Under the pieces are notes generated by a model that was not told where the DNA came from, did not search any database, and saw only the letters and a program-made list of their open reading frames with translations. From NCBI GenBank assembly GCA_014084085.1, contig NPFB01000073.1, positions 57,010-103,536 of the forward strand: a stretch of 46,527 nt of DNA, written 5' to 3'. Both the position numbers and the translations under genes were made by a program. Of the stretch, positions 9,566-29,818 are shown in pieces. How positions within the stretch are numbered: position 1 is the first letter of the stretch; each line of letters begins with the position of its first letter. The stretch is from Hondaea fermentalgiana (Eukaryota; Sar; Bigyra; Thraustochytrida; Thraustochytriidae).

Positions 9566-11887
9566 TCAAGTTGCAGACGCGCGCGTCTTCCCGAAAATAG
9601 CTTCCTTGGACACAAGTTCACTAGGTACCGATGCGCCAGACATTACGCCAACTTGCGAGGCGTGACCGCTTGACGTGCGGTGGCCCGAGTAAACTGTCTT
9701 GAAAACGGCTGTTCGCAAAATTGCCGCGTGCAATGACGGGAAAGGCTCTGAACCGCAGCTGCAGGTGCCGTCAGCGTTCATTTTGATGATAATGTGTTGG
9801 ATCTCTTTCTCAGATGTCTGCGCATTTCCCCACGAGGAATGCGGCGACTGTGCATTCAGTCCTCGGTGTAGCCAGCCTTGGTTTGATCTTTTCACAACGA
9901 CCCCTGCAACGAGTGAGCCCGGATAGCTCTCGCTCAAACGGAGCATAAACGTCCCTGGCGGTGCGTTTCGAATGTGATTTTCCACCCCCGTCCGCGAAGT
10001 TAGCCACAGCACAGGATAGTGGCGACCGACACGACGCGCCCAAATGTCACTCAAAAGACGTATACTCCGAAGCGTATACACATACCAAGGCCAAAAGGAC
10101 TTGATGAAGCGCGAGACGGACACAAGACGTCTCGAGGAGGCCGAAACGACGGCCGGGAGGACAGGCGATATACGCGTAAGATTGCGAATACCTTCTGCAG
10201 ATGAATCACTCAACGGGCGTGTTCCTCCAATTGTCTGTGCAAAGTGGCGACGTAGCTGCTCAGAGAAGCGCGTCCAGGTTGTGCGGCTCTGGCTAGCCAT
10301 GCGCGCACCCTTGCGCTCACAGCACAGTTTCCAAAAGTTCACGCCGGCTGCTGCATCCTCGTCGTTCAGCAGCATGCCGAGCATCTCACGAAAGTCTTCC
10401 AGCGTCGACTTTTCACGTTCTGCACAAAGGATGTCGAGGCGGCCGTTCACCAAACTACAAGGGCTTTCTCGCGCCGCAGCTTGAATCATTTCTGGAGTGC
10501 AGAGTTGCATGGAGTGCAACTTTTCGACAGCGCGACGGAGAGCCCTAGTTTGCTGGGGTGATGGCGCCTCGATGTCATGCTCGTGCTCGAGCATCGCGAG
10601 CGCCGCGGAGGGGTCCATGCCTTCAAGCTCCACGTGTGCAATGTAACTTGAGCTTATTGCGCCCAAAAAGGGAGAGGCAAATCGTGACACGCACAGCATC
10701 GTGATTCCCAAATACTCTGTGAGGCCCCTGACCAGGTCCACAAACGCAGTGTTGCAGACCCCCGCCGCCTCGCAATCGTCTAAAACGAGAACAATTTCCC
10801 GCTGTGGTGTGCAAGTGTCCTCAAAGAGTTCCTTGAGGGCGATCCGGACCTGCTGAAGAGCCTGATCAGGCTTTAGTGCGCTTGCAGCATTGCTTGCCGT
10901 CGTGTTACCCGCTTGACCTCCCGCCAAGAGAGGATGGTTCACCTGCAGATTTGCTTTCCTCGCAATGTCGGCGGCTATTTCCTTGGCAATGTCCAAGGTC
11001 CATTGCAGCCGGGCTGCATCATAGTTAGGGGCGCGTTCGTTGATTCTACGGTTAAGTTTTGCGCAATTGACATAAAATACAGCCCGCATGAGTCTTCGCT
11101 CCAAGGCAAACTGAACGACATGCATGGCCAAAGCAGATTTGCCGCTGCCGGGCATGCCCGTGATAAGAGCAACTCGCTTTTCCTCGTTCAAAAGGGCGTC
11201 GCAAACGTCTTGCATGGCTTTGTACCGACCAAAGAAACGCGTTGGCGTCGATGCCATCTGGGGCAACGCAGGCGCGCTCGAAGCTCGTCGAAGCATGTTG
11301 CGTGGGTGGAAGAGAGCACTTCTGTCGATGCTCACTTCCGTAGCGTTTGCGTGGCTGGGGACGACAAGCTTGACTATGTCTGGATCAACCTCTGACGTTT
11401 CGAGCGCTTGGTTCAGGACCTCTTGCAGAGGTGCTGAGTCGTCTGGCCATGCGAGGAGCGTCGTGTAAAAGACTTCAACAAAGCCAAGTGCAAGCCCGCG
11501 AAGGAGCACAACGGCAGGAACGCCCACATCCAAAAATCCCTCTGCTGCGTCATCGGCGTGCTCGAGCCCTTGTGCGCTCACAAAGACGACGGGTCGTGGT
11601 CGCTGGGCAAGCCGTACTGTGCGAAGTGCCTCGGGTCCGAGGTCGCATAGTTTGCCCTTGTTTGTCTCGAGCATAAGCCTACCCCCAGCAATTCCGGAGC
11701 CTACAAAGTGCAGGACGCTTCCCATCGGGTTCGCGTTTAGTGCGCCCAGCAGCGCTTGGCTTGTCGCTGCGTGAAGAGTATACGCGACGCCGCTCGCTTC
11801 GCAGACGCGCCGCACCACATGGGCCTCTTCACGATATTGTCCAGGCCGCAGCCTCGAGTCGCGCGGCGCGCTGAAGAGCACCTGCAT
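9566..11887 (-). CDS. CHAT-like / STAND P-loop NTPase / STAT-like SH2 protein
   Basis: 773 residues in one frame from ATG 11887. Residues 1-165 read as a CHAT (caspase-HetF-associated) domain: the opening VLFSAPRD...EEAHVVRRV is the typical start, then VLHFVGSG (58-65), VVFVSAQG (100-107) and a GFLDVGVPAVVLLRG block. Both catalytic positions differ: Ser for His in the usual HFAGHG, Gln for Cys in the usual LSAC. Residues 218-440 are a STAND/NB-ARC-like NTPase: GMPGSGKS (244-251), Walker B VLVLDDC (366-372), sensor-like strand ITMLCVSR. Residues about 595-727 resemble the STAT linker plus SH2: FWPWYVYTL, PPGTFMLRLSES with phosphotyrosine-binding Arg650. No TM. Probably a cytosolic switch linking an NLR-like ATPase to phosphotyrosine. 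The trigger is unknown. Confidence 0.8.
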   Translation of the reverse strand: MQVLFSAPRDSRLRPGQYREEAHVVRRVCEASGVAYTLHAATSQALLGALNANPMGSVLHFVGSGIAGGRLMLETNKGKLCDLGPEALRTVRLAQRPRPVVFVSAQGLEHADDAAEGFLDVGVPAVVLLRGLALGFVEVFYTTLLAWPDDSAPLQEVLNQALETSEVDPDIVKLVVPSHANATEVSIDRSALFHPRNMLRRASSAPALPQMASTPTRFFGRYKAMQDVCDALLNEEKRVALITGMPGSGKSALAMHVVQFALERRLMRAVFYVNCAKLNRRINERAPNYDAARLQWTLDIAKEIAADIARKANLQVNHPLLAGGQAGNTTASNAASALKPDQALQQVRIALKELFEDTCTPQREIVLVLDDCEAAGVCNTAFVDLVRGLTEYLGITMLCVSRFASPFLGAISSSYIAHVELEGMDPSAALAMLEHEHDIEAPSPQQTRALRRAVEKLHSMQLCTPEMIQAAARESPCSLVNGRLDILCAEREKSTLEDFREMLGMLLNDEDAAAGVNFWKLCCERKGARMASQSRTTWTRFSEQLRRHFAQTIGGTRPLSDSSAEGIRNLTRISPVLPAVVSASSRRLVSVSRFIKSFWPWYVYTLRSIRLLSDIWARRVGRHYPVLWLTSRTGVENHIRNAPPGTFMLRLSESYPGSLVAGVVVKRSNQGWLHRGLNAQSPHSSWGNAQTSEKEIQHIIIKMNADGTCSCGSEPFPSLHAAILRTAVFKTVYSGHRTSSGHASQVGVMSGASVPSELVSKEAIFGKTRASAT

Positions 11888-12351: not shown

Positions 12352-12688
12352 TTACAATTCTGTCCTGCTCGTGCCGCCGTGATTGGTTTCCGGGGGCTGC
12401 ACATTGTCATTCAAACTACTACTACTGCCATCGGCACTGCCACCACTGCTATTGGTCCCGCTCAGCTCGGCCACATCTGTGGGGCTCGCCGATATACTTG
12501 CGCTGGGGACTTGCATAATGAGCGAAGGAGCCTCGCCCATGCTGTTTGCACGAGAAAGTAGAGCCAACGCTTTGTCAGAAAAACGCTTGCGGCGCTCATC
12601 ATCCCGAATCGTCATTACATTGTAGTGAACTGGAGAGAGATACGTGAGAAAAACATGTCTCTGGGTGTTGTTGTTGGCATCATTATCA

Positions 12689-12728
<40 letters not shown>

Positions 12729-14082
12729 ACTCGCCGCCATCACAACTCCCACCCGCCTCAAGATTATCATGGGAACCCTCTTCCTTTTGTGTTGCGACTT
12801 GCGGAGCATACTCAAGATAGTATCCCCCGAAGCCTTCCGTGGACGTGAGCACATGCACAGTGACACATAGTGCGTCAGCCACGGCCTTGAGTGTCAACTC
12901 GTCGCCCCATTCGCCATTTTTGGACATTTTCTCGAGATATGCTTCGAACTCCTCAGGGCTGCCAAAGAAGACGTTGCTCTCGTCGGGGTGAGCTTGCATG
13001 TGCGCAACAGCCTTGGCCCGAACCCAGGCATGATGCTCCTGCGTTCCAAAGAGCTCGTGACTAATGGCTCGAAATTGACAGTTCCCGTCTCCACTCACGA
13101 CAATTTCGCCCATCCCAAAATTGCTCAGACGCTCCTTGAGCAGGTTCATTTGCGAGGTTCCGCGGCGGACTTGAATCGAGTCGGGAGAGCCCGGGGCATC
13201 CCGTTTGCGAACCGTCTCCTTGGCATCATCCGCTTTGCGTTTCATGGCCACCATGGCGCGAACAAGCGCAGGATTCCACTTGACGCTCGATCGGCCCTTG
13301 AGAGCGCGCAGCATCGCCTTATCGTGAGCACGGCGTTCACGGATCACTGGTGCTGCCACGGGTATGCCCGTGACTACAAGAGCAGGTGGTTCTTCATGCT
13401 CGATGTTCGAACCAAAGCGCGACTGAGGCGTCGAAGAGTGCAGCGTGGCAGGCGACGACATTGTCTTGGGTGTTGAAGGATCGATAATATCGTCTGCCTT
13501 GAGAGCAGCCGTCCCCTTCGACTCGTCCTTTGCATCTGCGCTCACCCAAGTTCTATCCCGAAAGGCATCAGAAGGCGCATGCGATAGCACATGGCGATGA
13601 TGTTCTTTGAGCAAGAGCTTGATCGCCTCTAGCTCATTGTAGCGGGTCTCCCGAAGTGCTCGCAGCGTATGTACGTCCGAGAAACCGAGCTTTCGGAGCG
13701 AATCGATCTCCTTGGCATGGATTGAGCGACGGAACTTGTCAGAGATCTTGCTCGATCGGGCCTGACCTGCAAGATGCGAATCTGGGTCTTCATCATTGAC
13801 GCGCTTTGCGATGGTGCGCAAGATCCGGAGGTGATCTCCCTGGAGTTCCTCGACAAGATCCACGGCGATCTCGTCAGGGACACCAATCTCCTCAACGAGC
13901 TCACGGAGAAGCGCCGAGCTTTCGCGCAAAAGTGCGATGCTCGTGCGCTCCCCCTTGTTCGCGCCCACGCCCTTTCCCCCTGCCGCTGCAGTCCCGCTCA
14001 CGGCGTCCTTCTTCTTCGCATCGCCGTCGCCGGCTCGGTTCTGCGCCGTCGTCGTCGTCGAGGAGGAGGCGTTGTTGCCCAT
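12352..14082 (-). CDS. OTU-family deubiquitinase with UBA-like domain, probably N-myristoylated
   Basis: 576 residues from ATG 14082. The frame stays open upstream to 14211, but MGNNASSS at 14082 is a good N-myristoylation signal (Gly2, Ser6) and upstream sequence is low-complexity. Residues about 125-160 (SLRKLGFSDV ... EAIKLLL) look like a UBA ubiquitin-binding domain. The OTU cysteine-protease domain runs from about 325 to 495: SGDGNCQFRA gives Asp332 and catalytic Cys335, WGDELTLKAVADAL is the conserved helix, SPVHYNVM gives catalytic His486. A poly-Asp run (about 453-466) sits inside the OTU domain just before the His strand. The enzyme should cleave ubiquitin chains, probably at a membrane. 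Divergent promoter with EFL1. Chain preference cannot be read. Confidence 0.9.
12676..12729. repeat. (GTC)n microsatellite coding poly-Asp
   Basis: A TCG/GTC trinucleotide tract on the plus strand is read on the minus strand as GAC codons, giving the poly-Asp insertion inside the OTU domain. Confidence 0.9.
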
Positions 14083-14420
14083 CTTCGCTCCGAGTCTGGC
14101 CGCGAGTCCTGCGCAGGCGCTGTGGGCAGGTCGGCCGCGAAGAGGAGCGCGCGGTCCAGGGCCGGCGGGCGTCGCGCGAAGGGCGTCTGCGCCGAGCCGA
14201 GCGCGCCGCACAAAGCCTCACGCCGCCAGTATCCTCCCTTTCCGGGTCTGCTGCCGCTCGGCTGAGCTGCTTTTTGGGGCCACGTTCTTTTTCAAATTCA
14301 AATCGATTCAAATCCTCGTTCAAAACCAAGTTCAAATCCCCGTTCCAAACGCAGCGACAAAGCCTCAATAAACGCAACAACTCGAGGAGGACACCTTGAA
14401 GGACTCGGAGCAGAACGCCT

Positions 14421-22378: not shown

Positions 22379-24916
22379 ATGGCCATGATCCGGGCGGCCG
22401 TGGCGCGGTGCGCTGCGGCGGCGCTCGCAGCCTGCCTCGTCATGGAGCAGGCCTCGGCGCAGTCGTTCTGGACGCAGCCCACAACCGACCTGAGCGACCT
22501 GGAGGCCCGCGAACTTCCGGGCATGGCGTACTGCGAGGCTTTGGACGTCATGCTCGTGGCCTTTGGGGCGGGCGCAAATGAAACGATTCTCAATGATCTG
22601 GCCCTGTACGACTTCGCTTCCCAGACCTTTGCGAGCTTTACGCTCCCGGACGAGGTTATCCCTCGCTTCGGACCGAGTGTTGTGAGCATTGAGGCGCCGC
22701 TTGCTGCGGCAGACTCGTGCCGCTTCTTGCTCTGGGGAGGCTCTTTCAACTACGTAGATAATTTGCAAGACCCGTTCGAGGACGTGGTTTCGGACTCGCT
22801 CGTCTGGGCCATTGATGTGCTGAGCGTGAGCGCCGGCGGGGAGATCATCGTTAATGCGACCGAGGTCCAAGTCTCAAATCCGCTTCTTGGCCGCTTGGGC
22901 GCCACAGTGTCTGTACGGAATAATTCTATGGTGGTCGTTAGCGGCCAAGAGGCTTTGGAAAATGGTGAGGACGCCTCGTATCCGGCAAACGACCTTTGGC
23001 GACTCACGCTGGACACCAATGCTCCTGCGGACGCACCAGCTGGGAACTGGACGCAAATCGCTGACTCTCTTACGAATCGATTTTACTCGGGTGCAACGTG
23101 GTCGAATGATGGCCAGAGTCTCGTCATGCATGGAGGCCAGGGCCGCGTCTTTGACACCTCGAATAATCCCCGCGACATTGCCAGGTCTGATATTTCTGTT
23201 GTCAGCTCTCCGTCACTATTTACTGAAGATGTAGCCAGCCTCGAGATTACGTCCGACCGCGTGCAGCAATCGAATGTCCTGTACCGTTTACATCACATAA
23301 TGGGGCATGTCGGCGACACGATTTTTATCTTTGGCGGTCTTCAATTTGTGCAGACTTCATCCGGCGGGACCGTTCTTCAGGCCAATCCATTCTTGGCCTT
23401 GACCACGATTGATTTTGACCTTTTCACATCTTCGTGCGAGCTGGCTGATGGCTCTGTCGTGGCATGGTGTGGTCTCACCGAGGAGTTTCCGGGCACATCC
23501 AAACTCGTGAGTGGTACCCAGCGGGGCGACGAGCTTGTTGTGCTCCGACAGGTTAGAAACCAGAATGGAACTCTCGATAACGAACTGTGGTCGCTCGATA
23601 TGGCTGCTGTTCTGACGGAAGGCAAACAATTTTTGAAAAACGGTTACACGCTCGAAGGCTGGGGCGGAACGGACGCGGGTTTGAAAGGGTATTTTGCATT
23701 ACAATTCTCCCTCGTCATCGTCGCGATTGTTGGCGTGTGCGCCATTGGCATAATACACCGATCACGCATGCGCAGCGACTCGAGTTTTGCCAATGCCTTC
23801 ACGGATCGTCGCAGCCGATCCTATGGCGTGCCTAAAGAAGTTGTGAATGCCCTTCCCTGGATCCGCTACGATGTAGACGGTCATCACGTGCGCCTTCGTC
23901 GTGAGGTTGACGAAGATGGGAATGAAACTTTTACCGAGATTCCTGGGTCTGACATTATCGTTAAAAAGGCATCCATCGGCTCCAATGCAAGCATCAGCCA
24001 TACCCCGCAGTCAGGCATTTCCATCGAGGTGTCGCGGCCGGAAGCTGACGTTGTAGACCATCGCGCTGAGCACAATTGCGATCGTCGGCCCTCTGAGATT
24101 ATAGACGACGATCACCTCGACAAAACGCAAGAGTCGGACACAAATGCGGACGCGAACGAGATTGATATCGAGGATGACGGCGAGGTGACCGATACCGACG
24201 GCGGCGAGCAGACCGATGACGAGGATAAGCAAGAGAACGACGACAAAAAATCGGACATCGGACGGACCAACTCAGCCAGCTCCGAAGCTACGATTCTAGT
24301 GGAACGCATCTCTTCCAAACTGAGCGAGCTTTCGGAGCGGGTCCCATCACTTATTAGCGCCGGAAGCCGGCGACTGTCGCGTCTCAGCAATCTAAGCCGT
24401 GAGTCTGGGGCAGGACTAGCCGCAACTGGCCAGCCAGGCATTTCTGGGGCAACATTTAATTTTATGGACGAAGAAGAGGGTGATCTCTGCTCCATTTGCC
24501 TTTTGGAGTTTGAGCAAGGCGAACCCATCAAGCAGCTTCCCTGCAACCATTTTTTCCATGGCGACTGCATTGAGCCCTGGCTTCTCAAGCGTGGCGATTG
24601 TCCGCTTTGCAAGCGCCACATCATCACTCTGCGTACCATCGAGGAGGAGGAGGCGCTTCGCGAGGCCTCGCCCGATAGTTACGTCAGCCAGGCCTACACA
24701 GAGCGCGAAGCTCGGGCCTCTGGTATTGGCACCAACGACATGGAGTCTCAGCGGCCGGGTAGCGACAACATGAGCGACCCCGCAGCCTCGTCGGCTGCGG
24801 TGGCTGCCGGGGCGTCCTCGCGTCCTCCCGCATGGCGGCGACTTGCGACTTTTGTCACGGGCAGCAACTCCCTTCGCCCAGAACTCCCGTTTCGCCGTCA
24901 CGAGAGCCGACAGTAG
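22379..24916 (+). CDS. Transmembrane RING-H2 E3 ligase with kelch-like ectodomain
   Basis: 845 residues from ATG 22379. Residues 1-28 are a signal peptide ending near ASAQ. The ectodomain (about 30-420) has kelch-type blades: repeated hydrophobic-strand, GG and W/Y pairs such as FLLWGGSFNY, MVVVSGQE, SLVMHGGQG and TIFIFGGLQF, plus several N-x-S/T sites. One TM helix lies at about 438-460. The cytosolic part has a basic segment, a long acidic Asp/Glu stretch (about 570-625), and a RING-H2 finger (Cys704 to about 745; CSICLLEF ... LPCNHFFHGDC ... CPLCKRH, C3H2C3). Layout parallels PA-TM-RING ligases with a kelch propeller in place of the PA domain. Predicted in endomembrane or plasma membrane; substrates unknown. 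Confidence 0.88.
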   Translation: MAMIRAAVARCAAAALAACLVMEQASAQSFWTQPTTDLSDLEARELPGMAYCEALDVMLVAFGAGANETILNDLALYDFASQTFASFTLPDEVIPRFGPSVVSIEAPLAAADSCRFLLWGGSFNYVDNLQDPFEDVVSDSLVWAIDVLSVSAGGEIIVNATEVQVSNPLLGRLGATVSVRNNSMVVVSGQEALENGEDASYPANDLWRLTLDTNAPADAPAGNWTQIADSLTNRFYSGATWSNDGQSLVMHGGQGRVFDTSNNPRDIARSDISVVSSPSLFTEDVASLEITSDRVQQSNVLYRLHHIMGHVGDTIFIFGGLQFVQTSSGGTVLQANPFLALTTIDFDLFTSSCELADGSVVAWCGLTEEFPGTSKLVSGTQRGDELVVLRQVRNQNGTLDNELWSLDMAAVLTEGKQFLKNGYTLEGWGGTDAGLKGYFALQFSLVIVAIVGVCAIGIIHRSRMRSDSSFANAFTDRRSRSYGVPKEVVNALPWIRYDVDGHHVRLRREVDEDGNETFTEIPGSDIIVKKASIGSNASISHTPQSGISIEVSRPEADVVDHRAEHNCDRRPSEIIDDDHLDKTQESDTNADANEIDIEDDGEVTDTDGGEQTDDEDKQENDDKKSDIGRTNSASSEATILVERISSKLSELSERVPSLISAGSRRLSRLSNLSRESGAGLAATGQPGISGATFNFMDEEEGDLCSICLLEFEQGEPIKQLPCNHFFHGDCIEPWLLKRGDCPLCKRHIITLRTIEEEEALREASPDSYVSQAYTEREARASGIGTNDMESQRPGSDNMSDPAASSAAVAAGASSRPPAWRRLATFVTGSNSLRPELPFRRHESRQ

Positions 24917-27226: not shown

Positions 27227-29818
27227 TCAGCCCAGCAAGAAACCGTCGGTGTTGCGAATGGCAAAGAGCACCTTGTCGCGGAGCACGGCCTCGGTCGCGT
27301 AGTCCGGGAGGACGACCTGGTTGAAGCAGGCGTGCGCCTTGCAGAGGGCATGTCTGTCGAGCTGGTCGTTCAACGTGAGGTTGAAGGGTGGCGTGAAGCC
27401 GTCCATCGGCACCTTGGAAGTTCCCGTCGCGAAGCGCAATAGCAGCGCCTGATCGGCGGCGTCCATGTCGCGAAAGAGCGTCCAAAACCAGTGCACGGCG
27501 GGGCTGTTGGCATCAAACCCCCCTTGATACACGCAACCAGCCCGGATCTGCTGTACGTCAATAAAGGGCAAACCATTCCACAGCATTTCGAGCTCGGCAA
27601 GCGAAAAGTCGGCGGCGCGCAACGTCGCCTCGGGCACGACCTCGAAAAGACCGCGCCTTATTGCCTCGATGTGGGGCCGGCACGAGTCCACAGCGCGCCA
27701 TTTGAGCATCTTTTCAACGTAGTCCTCCTTGTTCTCGTTGGTTACCTCGATGTTGCGACCGCCGGGAACGAGATCGACAATGACCTGTTCTTGCACGGGC
27801 GCGTTCGGATGCGGGTCCACATTGACGCAAAATTCCTCAAAGAGAATGCCGTCAATATCATTCTCAAGCATCCACATCATGTTCTTGACGAGGGCCGGGT
27901 CAGATTCACGCAAGTCGTCAATATCCACATGCATGCCAAGAATCTGCTTGAACAGGGTGCCGCTGAGTTTGACGTCAACGAGCTGGCGGTCGAGAATGGC
28001 CTTGCCAAGAACGCGGCCCACAAAATAAAACCAGGACTCCAACGCGCCGCCGTCAGGAGCCGCGGGCGCGAGGCGAACGTCATATCCTCCCGCCTCGCTC
28101 TCGCTCATGACAAAGAGACCAGAGTCCTCGGCAAAAAGGAGCTGTGAGACGCGCAGAAACCAATCTTTGGCAATGCCGCCAGCATCAATGCCCTCTTCAC
28201 CCTCGTATTCGACCTTGATTCGCATCTGGAGTTTTTCCATGTCATGCACCGCCATGAGCTTTGCCATGGAGTCCATGAGGAGAGAATTCCGATGGATGTA
28301 AAGACGCAACACGTTTGCTGGGCCTTTTGGCACCTTGCGTAATAGCTCGGCATTGAAGCGAAACCTCTTCTTTTTGAACTCTACAATTGGATCCACCGGA
28401 CCGTCAATTGCGGCGGGGCGATCGTCAGTCTCCGTGCCGGTTTCGATATTAATATAGCTGGGCGCGTACGTGTCCCAGCGCACCACTTCGACCCAATCCG
28501 ATATGTAAGGTCCAGGACCTGGGCCATCTTGCGAGCTGCTAGCAAACCCAGCACTAACACCCGCACCAACACCAGCAGAAGTAGCGCTCGTAGCATTAAC
28601 GGCGGTATTTGGTGGCTTGGTGCGAACGGTCATGTACTCGCTCCAAGGACTTGGACCCACTGCATTGACTGCCTGGACCTTGAAGTGGTAGTCCGCGGAA
28701 GGAGCGAGATTCAGCAGACGCAAGTGAAGAGCTTGACCCGTGAAAATATCTTGCACCGTCTCGTCGCGCAGCGCCCCGCCAGCGACACGGAATTCTCGAA
28801 TTTCGCTGCCCCGCGCAGCCGGGCATGTCCATTGCAAAACAAGCCGATCCGCACGAATACCGGACGGGTGCTGCACAAACGGAGGTGCTGGGACAGAGGG
28901 AGCTTCGGGGAATGTGTGCACGGCTTCACTGGGTACAGAAAAGGGGCCCCAGCCAAGTTTGTTATGTGCGCGTGCGCGAAAGATGTACTGCACGCCACAT
29001 TGAATATTCTCGACGTCAATTTGGCGCGAGGCAGCGGAGACATGTCCGAGCGAATCCCATTCGCGCGAAGTACGAAGACGCGGATCAAGAATGACGGCGT
29101 CGTGGTTCGGAACGACGGCCATGTACTGCACCTCGTAATAGTCAACAAGTCCGAGGACGTTGCAGATGGTGACGAAAATGATATTTGCGCCATGCACCTC
29201 GGCGCGAGGGGGTTTGCGCGGTCGGCGCGGCGGCTCAAAGGCTGCCCAGACGTCATCGCCGGATATTTTGCGACCGGTTTCCCCAACCTTGACGTTTCCG
29301 ATATTATTCACCGAGACGCCGGGGGGAAAAGAACGTTTGTGCTTTTCCCATTCGGCAGCGTCTGCGGTCCCGGTGTTGGCTTGTCGGTCGACGGCCCGCT
29401 CATCGAGCTCAATCCAAATGTAGCTCTCCCGCTTCGCCTTGAGCTTGCTCACGCGGACTGGCGCCGCGTAATAGATGTTGTTTACAACATAGTGAACTGA
29501 GACCTTTTGTTTGACGACGTCGCCGCCTTCGAGCACGACACCAAACTCTGCGCCACGCTCTGCAGCCTCGGTCTGCAGCGCCGAGGTCGCGGCGTCGGTC
29601 TCACCCTCGTCCTGGCGCACCTTGGAACTGTTCGAGACCAGCGAGCCGGACGAGAGTCGCTTGCGCGAAAGAACGCCGGACAGCCACGTCAGCATTTCGT
29701 GAACGCCTCTGGACGCTCCTTTGGCATTGCGCGCGGACTCTTCATCCAGCCGCTCTGCCGCGCTCGCTGCGTCCCACCTCCTTGCGCTCTTCTCGAGTGC
29801 GAGCCTGCGCTCAATCAC
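27227..29818 (-). CDS. HECT-type E3 ubiquitin ligase with two fibronectin III-like domains
   Basis: The frame gives 863 residues. It opens with GTG at 29818, directly after TAG. Either the first ATG (29695, 822 residues) is used or a small 5' exon is spliced on; a candidate ATG exon is 29883-29897. Numbering is from 29818. FN3-like domains lie at about 197-302 and 305-402 (YIFRARAHNKLGWGPFS; YHFKVQAVNAVGPSPWSEY). A WW-like remnant is at 441-468 (YINIETGTET), and the HECT domain at about 485-863: LRIYIHR-like start, EGEEGIDAGGIAKDWF, FYFVGRVLGKAI, and HACFNQVVLPDY with catalytic Cys831. HECT ligases accept ubiquitin on this Cys and pass it to substrates; the FN3 pair probably binds partners. 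No TM segment, so cytosolic. Confidence 0.93.
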   Translation of the reverse strand: MIERRLALEKSARRWDAASAAERLDEESARNAKGASRGVHEMLTWLSGVLSRKRLSSGSLVSNSSKVRQDEGETDAATSALQTEAAERGAEFGVVLEGGDVVKQKVSVHYVVNNIYYAAPVRVSKLKAKRESYIWIELDERAVDRQANTGTADAAEWEKHKRSFPPGVSVNNIGNVKVGETGRKISGDDVWAAFEPPRRPRKPPRAEVHGANIIFVTICNVLGLVDYYEVQYMAVVPNHDAVILDPRLRTSREWDSLGHVSAASRQIDVENIQCGVQYIFRARAHNKLGWGPFSVPSEAVHTFPEAPSVPAPPFVQHPSGIRADRLVLQWTCPAARGSEIREFRVAGGALRDETVQDIFTGQALHLRLLNLAPSADYHFKVQAVNAVGPSPWSEYMTVRTKPPNTAVNATSATSAGVGAGVSAGFASSSQDGPGPGPYISDWVEVVRWDTYAPSYINIETGTETDDRPAAIDGPVDPIVEFKKKRFRFNAELLRKVPKGPANVLRLYIHRNSLLMDSMAKLMAVHDMEKLQMRIKVEYEGEEGIDAGGIAKDWFLRVSQLLFAEDSGLFVMSESEAGGYDVRLAPAAPDGGALESWFYFVGRVLGKAILDRQLVDVKLSGTLFKQILGMHVDIDDLRESDPALVKNMMWMLENDIDGILFEEFCVNVDPHPNAPVQEQVIVDLVPGGRNIEVTNENKEDYVEKMLKWRAVDSCRPHIEAIRRGLFEVVPEATLRAADFSLAELEMLWNGLPFIDVQQIRAGCVYQGGFDANSPAVHWFWTLFRDMDAADQALLLRFATGTSKVPMDGFTPPFNLTLNDQLDRHALCKAHACFNQVVLPDYATEAVLRDKVLFAIRNTDGFLLG

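Follow-up and report, generated by a model that had tools for sequence, protein, structure and literature searches.

Caspase-like CHAT effectors described to date include SAVED-CHAT (8tl0) and TPR-CHAT (Csx29). According to PMC10028731, the CHAT protease uses a catalytic His/Cys pair and is activated allosterically, mutation of the H615 and C658 pair of Csx29 abolishes cleavage, and a pseudo-caspase domain, CHAT1, is present in the same protein. In fungi, CHAT also serves as the protease of gasdermin-linked NLRs (PMC12881547). The protein that we analyse here resembles these fungal CHAT-NLRs and prokaryotic CHAT-NACHT-TPR proteins in that its CHAT domain is followed by a STAND NTPase. The CHAT-NACHT-TPR proteins end in TPRs, whereas this protein ends in a STAT-type linker and an SH2 domain. 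It differs from 8tl0 and Csx29 in that no SAVED or TPR was found in it and in that its CHAT domain, which lacks both the His and the Cys, is joined to a STAND NTPase and an SH2 domain. CED-4, Apaf-1 and plant NLR NB-ARC proteins are among the closest known systems to its STAND part. In comparison with STAT proteins (Dictyostelium STATa, STAT5, STAT6), its N-terminal half is CHAT-STAND and a conserved tail tyrosine is absent. In NLRs and Apaf-1, the C-terminal part is the sensor, the NTPase is the switch and the N-terminal domain is the output. Most work on SH2 domains concerns animals and amoebae, in which these domains link kinases with adaptors and with transcription.

The original prediction had treated the combination of CHAT, STAND and SH2 as apparently undescribed, and this agrees with the literature searched (which included few subscription papers and no bioRxiv preprints), where no publication joining a CHAT domain with an SH2 domain, or a CHAT domain, an SH2 domain and NACHT, was found. 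For an SH2 domain together with a STAND NTPase, only PMC8195603 was returned, in the accessible part of which the SH2 domain occurs just in the reference list; in the accessible part of PMC4053784, SH2 and NB-ARC appear in separate passages. What appears to be new is thus a CHAT-STAND protein with a phosphotyrosine reader as its putative sensor, here with a predicted dead protease, while the presence of CHAT on fungal NLRs was already known (PMC12881547).

The window, i.e., the whole 46,527-nucleotide stretch of DNA that was analysed, is part of contig C209 of the 36-Mb genome of the thraustochytrid stramenopile Hondaea fermentalgiana. The features discussed below are the following:

9566..11887, minus strand: single reading frame of 773 aa, CHAT-like / STAND NTPase / STAT-type linker-SH2
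11318..11887, minus strand: CHAT-fold domain, residues 1-190, catalytically degenerate
11693..11710, minus strand: HFVGSG, residues 60-65, where Ser64 stands in place of the catalytic His of CHAT (all the others of 17 aligned proteins, i.e., 16, have His)
11567..11581, minus strand: VSAQG, residues 103-107, where Gln106 stands in place of the catalytic Cys of CHAT (present in the 16 other aligned proteins), with an insertion of 3 residues after it
10448..11245, minus strand: STAND NTPase (nucleotide-binding and helical part), residues about 215-480
11135..11158, minus strand: Walker A, GMPGSGKS, residues 244-251
10772..10792, minus strand: Walker B, VLVLDDC, residues 366-372
10013..10291, minus strand: STAT-type linker, residues about 533-625, including FWPWYVYTL
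9683..10012, minus strand: SH2 domain, residues about 626-735
9938..9940, minus strand: Arg650, phosphotyrosine-binding Arg of GTFMLRLSES, invariant in all six SH2-bearing members
9794..9796, minus strand: His698, aligned with the conserved SH2 His, invariant in all six SH2-bearing members
9759..10059, minus strand: GT-AG 'intron' of the deposited model FCC1311_064392, 301 nt, stop-free in frame, encoding 85 of the about 110 SH2 residues

The frame lies on the minus strand, starts at 11887 and ends at 9566, with in-frame stops upstream of its ATG; the plus-strand reading of 9566-11887 is interrupted by stops. It is far longer than chance gives, the longest open run being 438 codons in 200 simulated 46.5-kb sequences with the dinucleotide make-up of the ORF (three frames of one strand in each), and its G+C content by codon position is similar to that of three other long frames of the window. 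The single uninterrupted frame of the original prediction is therefore real, and the motifs it quoted are found at the residues it gave (GMPGSGKS 244-251, VLVLDDC 366-372, FWPWYVYTL 598-606 and GTFMLRLSES 645-654 with Arg650). Motifs and domains were right, but the strand, the catalytic loss in the CHAT domain and the absence of most of the SH2 domain from the deposited protein had escaped it. The neighbouring frame on the same strand (12352-14211, minus) encodes an OTU-type cysteine protease domain (62.1 bits), and further along the window a HECT ligase is encoded at 27227-29818 and a Kelch-RING protein at 22379-24916.

Besides Pfam, family profiles from which the window protein had been left out were used to assign the domains, the CHAT profile being built from 11 relatives. 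The window protein had been part of the alignment from which these profiles were taken and was removed before realignment, so that a small bias is present in their scores. The background is the best score of 1000 shuffles. Among the 272 open frames of the window, each held-out profile clearly matches the 773-aa frame only. NCBIfam and PADLOC gave no meaningful family for the protein, nearly all of their matches falling on the P-loop part.

The Pfam scan reported no match of PF12770 (CHAT) in the window protein up to E 10. The held-out CHAT profile gave 33.2 bits against 5.2 for the best shuffle, and still 33.2 bits against 5.6 when the Hondaea paralogues were removed, leaving 8 relatives. The caspase/CHAT fold match is strong in both predicted structures, i.e., in the AlphaFold2 model of the window protein, which is of middling quality (mean pLDDT 60.7, pTM 0.47) and unreliable in residues 421-532 and 732-773, among others, and in the better model of the relative P0010 (pLDDT 70.3). 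The catalytic His and Cys are both kept in 16 of 17 aligned proteins, where the motifs are of xHG- or GHC-type (His) and AC- or SC-type (Cys) and align opposite HFIGHG and LNAC of 8tl0; the window protein, with Ser64 and Gln106, is the sole loss. Because both residues are absent, the window protein has a CHAT fold but is not a CHAT peptidase; judged from its sequence, it should be a pseudo-protease that does not cleave.

The STAND part is matched by AAA_16 over its cut-off at residues 217-375 (47.1 bits, Pfam) and by the held-out STAND profile over residues 216-437 (70.5 bits against 6.1 for the best shuffle); the NACHT and NB-ARC models of Pfam stay under cut-off, and no winged-helix part was recognised in the STAND module of the window protein. 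The fold matches of the NTPase part are CED-4, Apaf-1 and a plant NLR, with Cdc6/ORC proteins at similar Z; in Foldseek, Cdc6/ORC ATPases occupy the first rows for the window model and rank better than CED-4/NLR. The CHAT and CED-4/NLR fold matches extend from residue 1 to about residue 507, and in the P0010 model NLR and CED-4 rows cover the STAND part. The Walker A Lys is kept in all 17 aligned proteins (Lys250 in the window protein) and Walker B Asp370 is also kept. With these motifs and SH2 Arg650 and His698 (the latter in what we take to be strand D of the SH2 domain) retained and the catalytic pair lost, the window protein should still bind both nucleotide and phosphotyrosine, without being able to cleave.

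At residues 631-720, PF00017 (SH2) scores 24.0 bits against a cut-off of 21 in the Pfam scan and 27.5 bits in the genome scan. The held-out profiles gave 30.3 bits for SH2 (best shuffle 8.7), 18.4 for the linker (7.4) and 54.5 for linker and SH2 together (6.3). The best single-sequence PDB match is the linker and SH2 of Dictyostelium STATa (residues 532-659, E 8.9e-4, phmmer). PF21354 (STAT_linker) matches two of the six SH2-bearing members, with a best E of 0.03, and EF-hand_12 matches one of the six, both staying below cut-off in the member for which scores were listed; STAT_bind gave no match, and no positive control responded to it either. The presence of a CHAT fold, a STAND NTPase and a STAT-like linker-SH2 in one chain, as originally predicted, is borne out by profiles and fold matches. 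At the level of fold, CHAT is strong in both models, and the STAT-type linker-SH2 unit was recovered by structure in P0010, but an SH2/STAT fold was absent among the 50 matches listed for the window model, so that the window SH2 domain is supported by sequence and by the P0010 model.

The SH2 domain is largely missing from public annotation. The deposited protein FCC1311_064392 (P0001, 647 aa) is identical to the window protein over 609 residues, and SH2 is not among its listed Pfam domains. Removal of 9759-10059 is the only splice in the scanned range that gives P0001 exactly, and past this 301-nt segment P0001 reads another frame for its last 38 residues. It could be argued from the exact fit of the GT-AG pair that the deposited model is right for the major isoform, the intron being spliced so that most of the protein has no SH2 and the SH2-containing form is a retained-intron variant. 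We regard this as very unlikely, since the 'intron' is open in frame and encodes 85 of about 110 residues of a domain common to five relatives, and since the last 38 residues of P0001 are in another frame. The deposited model of a second Hondaea gene, that of contig C15, similarly omits in-frame sequence: this protein (P0002, named STAT A) keeps its SH2 domain but lacks, starting at the Walker B region, 297 residues that are in frame. Open frame and SH2 content together make the deposited 301-nt intron most likely a mis-prediction. Both deposited Hondaea models thus omit in-frame sequence and one of them loses most of its SH2, so annotation can hide proteins of this kind. In the C15 gene (L012:2211-4853, G000:C15), whose product is this STAT A and a CHAT-STAND-SH2 protein, a run of N comes directly before the N-terminus.

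Homologue searches with the window protein as query returned only its own deposited model. The CHAT end of the C15 protein as query gave 12 proteins, C15's own P0002 included, and a Pfam scan of all 12 placed both CHAT and SH2 over cut-off in P0002, P0003, P0004, P0005 and P0010 and no SH2 in the other seven. The CHAT-STAND-SH2 architecture is found in six distinct proteins: the window protein, C15 (= P0002), P0003, P0004, P0005 and P0010. The C15 gene has CHAT (52.4 bits) and SH2 (25.1 bits) in one open frame of at least 880 residues, and P0003, an MMETSP transcript ORF labelled complete, carries all three domains in a single ORF, which speaks against two separate transcripts for the window gene. 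Four of the six (the window protein, P0004, P0005 and P0010) have a STAND-type family above its cut-off, while in C15 and P0003 the STAND assignment comes from Walker motifs and matches under cut-off. A profile of the 12 aligned members matched, with three separate stretches, STATa (5.4e-19), the CHAT protein 8tl0 (2.8e-13) and the plant NLR At5g66900 (3.2e-7). The score of the window SH2 domain alone, only 3 bits above the Pfam cut-off, might be taken to mean that the parts were joined by chance or by an assembly error. This is extremely improbable, and refuted as far as sequence can refute it: six distinct genes or proteins, drawn from genomes, metagenomes and transcriptomes, have the same domain order, and it is backed by the held-out profiles and the structure match. 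The name given to P0010 in its source, 'DNA polymerase III delta prime subunit', is not borne out by its domains.

In all five other CHAT-STAND relatives scanned for them (L024, L025, P0007, P0008 and P0009), TPRs hold the C-terminal place, being over cut-off C-terminal of the NTPase. The original prediction noted that the window protein has no WD40, LRR or TPR, and indeed none was reported by the Pfam scan (the HMMER filters drop most weak matches). It went on to place the sensing part in the CHAT-like domain or at residues 440-590, which is not supported, the last third of that stretch (from about residue 533) being STAT-type linker and the C-terminal place belonging to TPRs in the five relatives. 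By analogy with their position, the linker-SH2 would occupy the sensor position of a CHAT-STAND protein. L024 and L025, from an Anaerolineae MAG and a Theionarchaea MAG, respectively, are the two relatives obtained from 75 matches of one degenerate pattern in GTDB genomes; both are CHAT-NACHT-TPR proteins, and the Pfam scan found no SH2 in either. L024:3698-6838 (EAD7-CHAT-NACHT-TPR) is the closest named bacterial relative of the CHAT-STAND part among the pattern-search matches, and its N-terminal effector-associated domain EAD7 (56.6 bits) fits a conflict-system background. In IMG/VR, 27 pattern matches contained no confirmed relative. P0012 and P0013, CHAT-STAND proteins of Achlya and Thraustotheca, have a different N-terminal extension, and P0013 continues into an ABC-transporter membrane region, possibly through a gene-model fusion.

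In the CHAT-STAND tree (17 rows, P0002 being omitted as a copy of C15), the SH2-bearing proteins do not form one clade, with P0010 outside; of 14 inner branches, 9 are left open, and the test does not reject a single clade (p-AU 0.231). A single origin of the SH2-bearing architecture is neither shown nor excluded by these sequences. The window row has an end branch of 3.41 against a median of 0.55 and its tree position is unsure. This very long branch, the loss of both catalytic residues with a 3-residue insertion beside the Cys site, and the low identity to relatives (45 of 166 CHAT residues between the window protein and C15; 118 of 185 between C15 and P0003) could mean that the window gene is a decaying paralogue, a drifting relic whose protease function is already gone. 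In that case Walker A, Walker B and the SH2 Arg and His should have been hit as well, but all of these are kept, the frame is open over 773 codons and its codon-position G+C is like that of the three other long window frames, so that we give a relic a low probability.

Resemblance to STATs suggests another reading, according to which the window protein is a STAT-like signalling adaptor that relays phosphotyrosine signals, with CHAT-STAND serving as an assembly platform only and not in immunity or cell death. It is suggested by the deposited name 'STAT A' of the C15 gene, by the linker-SH2 family profile, which matches STATa at 1.1e-22 and STAT6 at 2.6e-14, and by the window CHAT domain being without its catalytic pair. 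However, no STAT DNA-binding or coiled-coil domain was reported in the Pfam scan of the window chain, and the other five of the six SH2-bearing members (C15, P0003, P0004, P0005 and P0010) have the CHAT catalytic pair intact. The STAT-type tail tyrosine is not conserved either, a Tyr beyond +60 of the GTF motif being present in only two of the six (733 in the window protein, 960 in P0003), and STAT-type dimerisation through it is not supported by the aligned sequences. We consider an adaptor role of this kind unlikely.

The Hondaea genome contains PF00017 in at least five places in four genes (a two-SH2 protein, a gene that we read as SPT6-like, C15 and the window gene) and PF12770 in at least five places. 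The protein with two tandem SH2 domains (L016:2200-4845, G000:C189; 67.9 bits in all) also has a Cbl_N3 match (26.0 bits, cut-off 25). Three other CHAT loci deserve mention. L015:1703-5113 (G000:C79) encodes a CHAT-STAND protein with a receptor-like start, in which a signal peptide and a transmembrane segment (both recognised by eye) and an EGF-like region (EGF_Teneurin, 25.3 bits, cut-off 24.3) precede CHAT with His and Cys and then a STAND part (NB-ARC 19.8, under the cut-off of 23.5); a caspase-like domain inside a cell-surface receptor would be striking. L013:5977-9867 (G000:C91) is a frame of at least 1296 residues in which CHAT and STAND come after LRR-like repeats (below cut-off), its Walker B region reading LLLLSGCD, without the usual Asp. 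L017:1540-4269 (G000:C93) is a CHAT-like frame (34.4 bits, cut-off 24) in which HFSGH (97) and NACHS (480) are about 385 residues apart with a long low-complexity insertion between them.

To judge from motif and domain matches, phosphotyrosine writers and erasers may be present in the same genome. A classical PTP domain is found with 210 bits, and one kinase (G000:C47:125700-126365) combines HRDIASRN with GPIKWMAPE; it may be a tyrosine kinase, in a genome where SH2 genes are few. The kinase motifs were examined for 30 of the 144 PF07714 matches, with motif output for only part of those 30. The phosphotyrosine supply is uncertain because this kinase is the only place in the genome with the searched P-x-K-W-M-A-P-E and because the HRDLAARN pattern has no match there. 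One Pfam model of gasdermin (PF04598) found none in the Hondaea genome, and the substrate type of fungal CHAT proteases was thus not detected.

The architecture is well supported, and on it we build an inferred mechanism. The explanation that we favour, with confidence a little short of even, is that the window protein belongs to a family in which a STAND NTPase with a C-terminal linker-SH2 sensor controls a caspase-like CHAT domain, the window copy being a dead partner. By analogy with NLRs and Apaf-1, the SH2 domain would bind a tyrosine-phosphorylated partner, and its engagement would free the STAND module for nucleotide exchange and oligomerisation. The resulting STAND ring would cluster CHAT domains and, in members with an intact pair (Hondaea C15, P0003, P0004, P0005 and P0010), clustering would switch on the caspase-like protease. 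Since the window protein should not cleave, it would most likely be a dead partner in the same assemblies and serve there as a brake, decoy or scaffold, the part that dead caspase relatives play towards caspases. c-FLIP and other pseudo-caspases are catalytically dead caspase-fold paralogues, and the window protein is, like c-FLIP, a predicted dead paralogue of the intact-pair members, its partner and cell-death role being putative. Against this explanation, the window gene is fast-evolving and could be decaying, and the meeting of the window protein with C15 is assumed. The uncertain phosphotyrosine supply, the negative gasdermin search, the unrecognised winged helix and the resemblance of the nucleotide-binding part to Cdc6/ORC proteins, nearly as good as to CED-4, also count against it.

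A bolder proposal, possible though doubtful, is that thraustochytrids and other organisms have a one-polypeptide, phosphotyrosine-gated, apoptosome-like machine with the SH2 domain as reader, STAND as switch and CHAT as output, the window gene encoding its dead regulator. If true, tyrosine phosphorylation would here be coupled to a caspase-like switch by a route independent of that in animals. If functional, the proteins described here would link phosphotyrosine signalling in a unicellular stramenopile straight to an output of protease or cell-death type. They would also mean that CHAT-STAND proteins can have, in the sensor slot, a domain that reads a post-translational mark.
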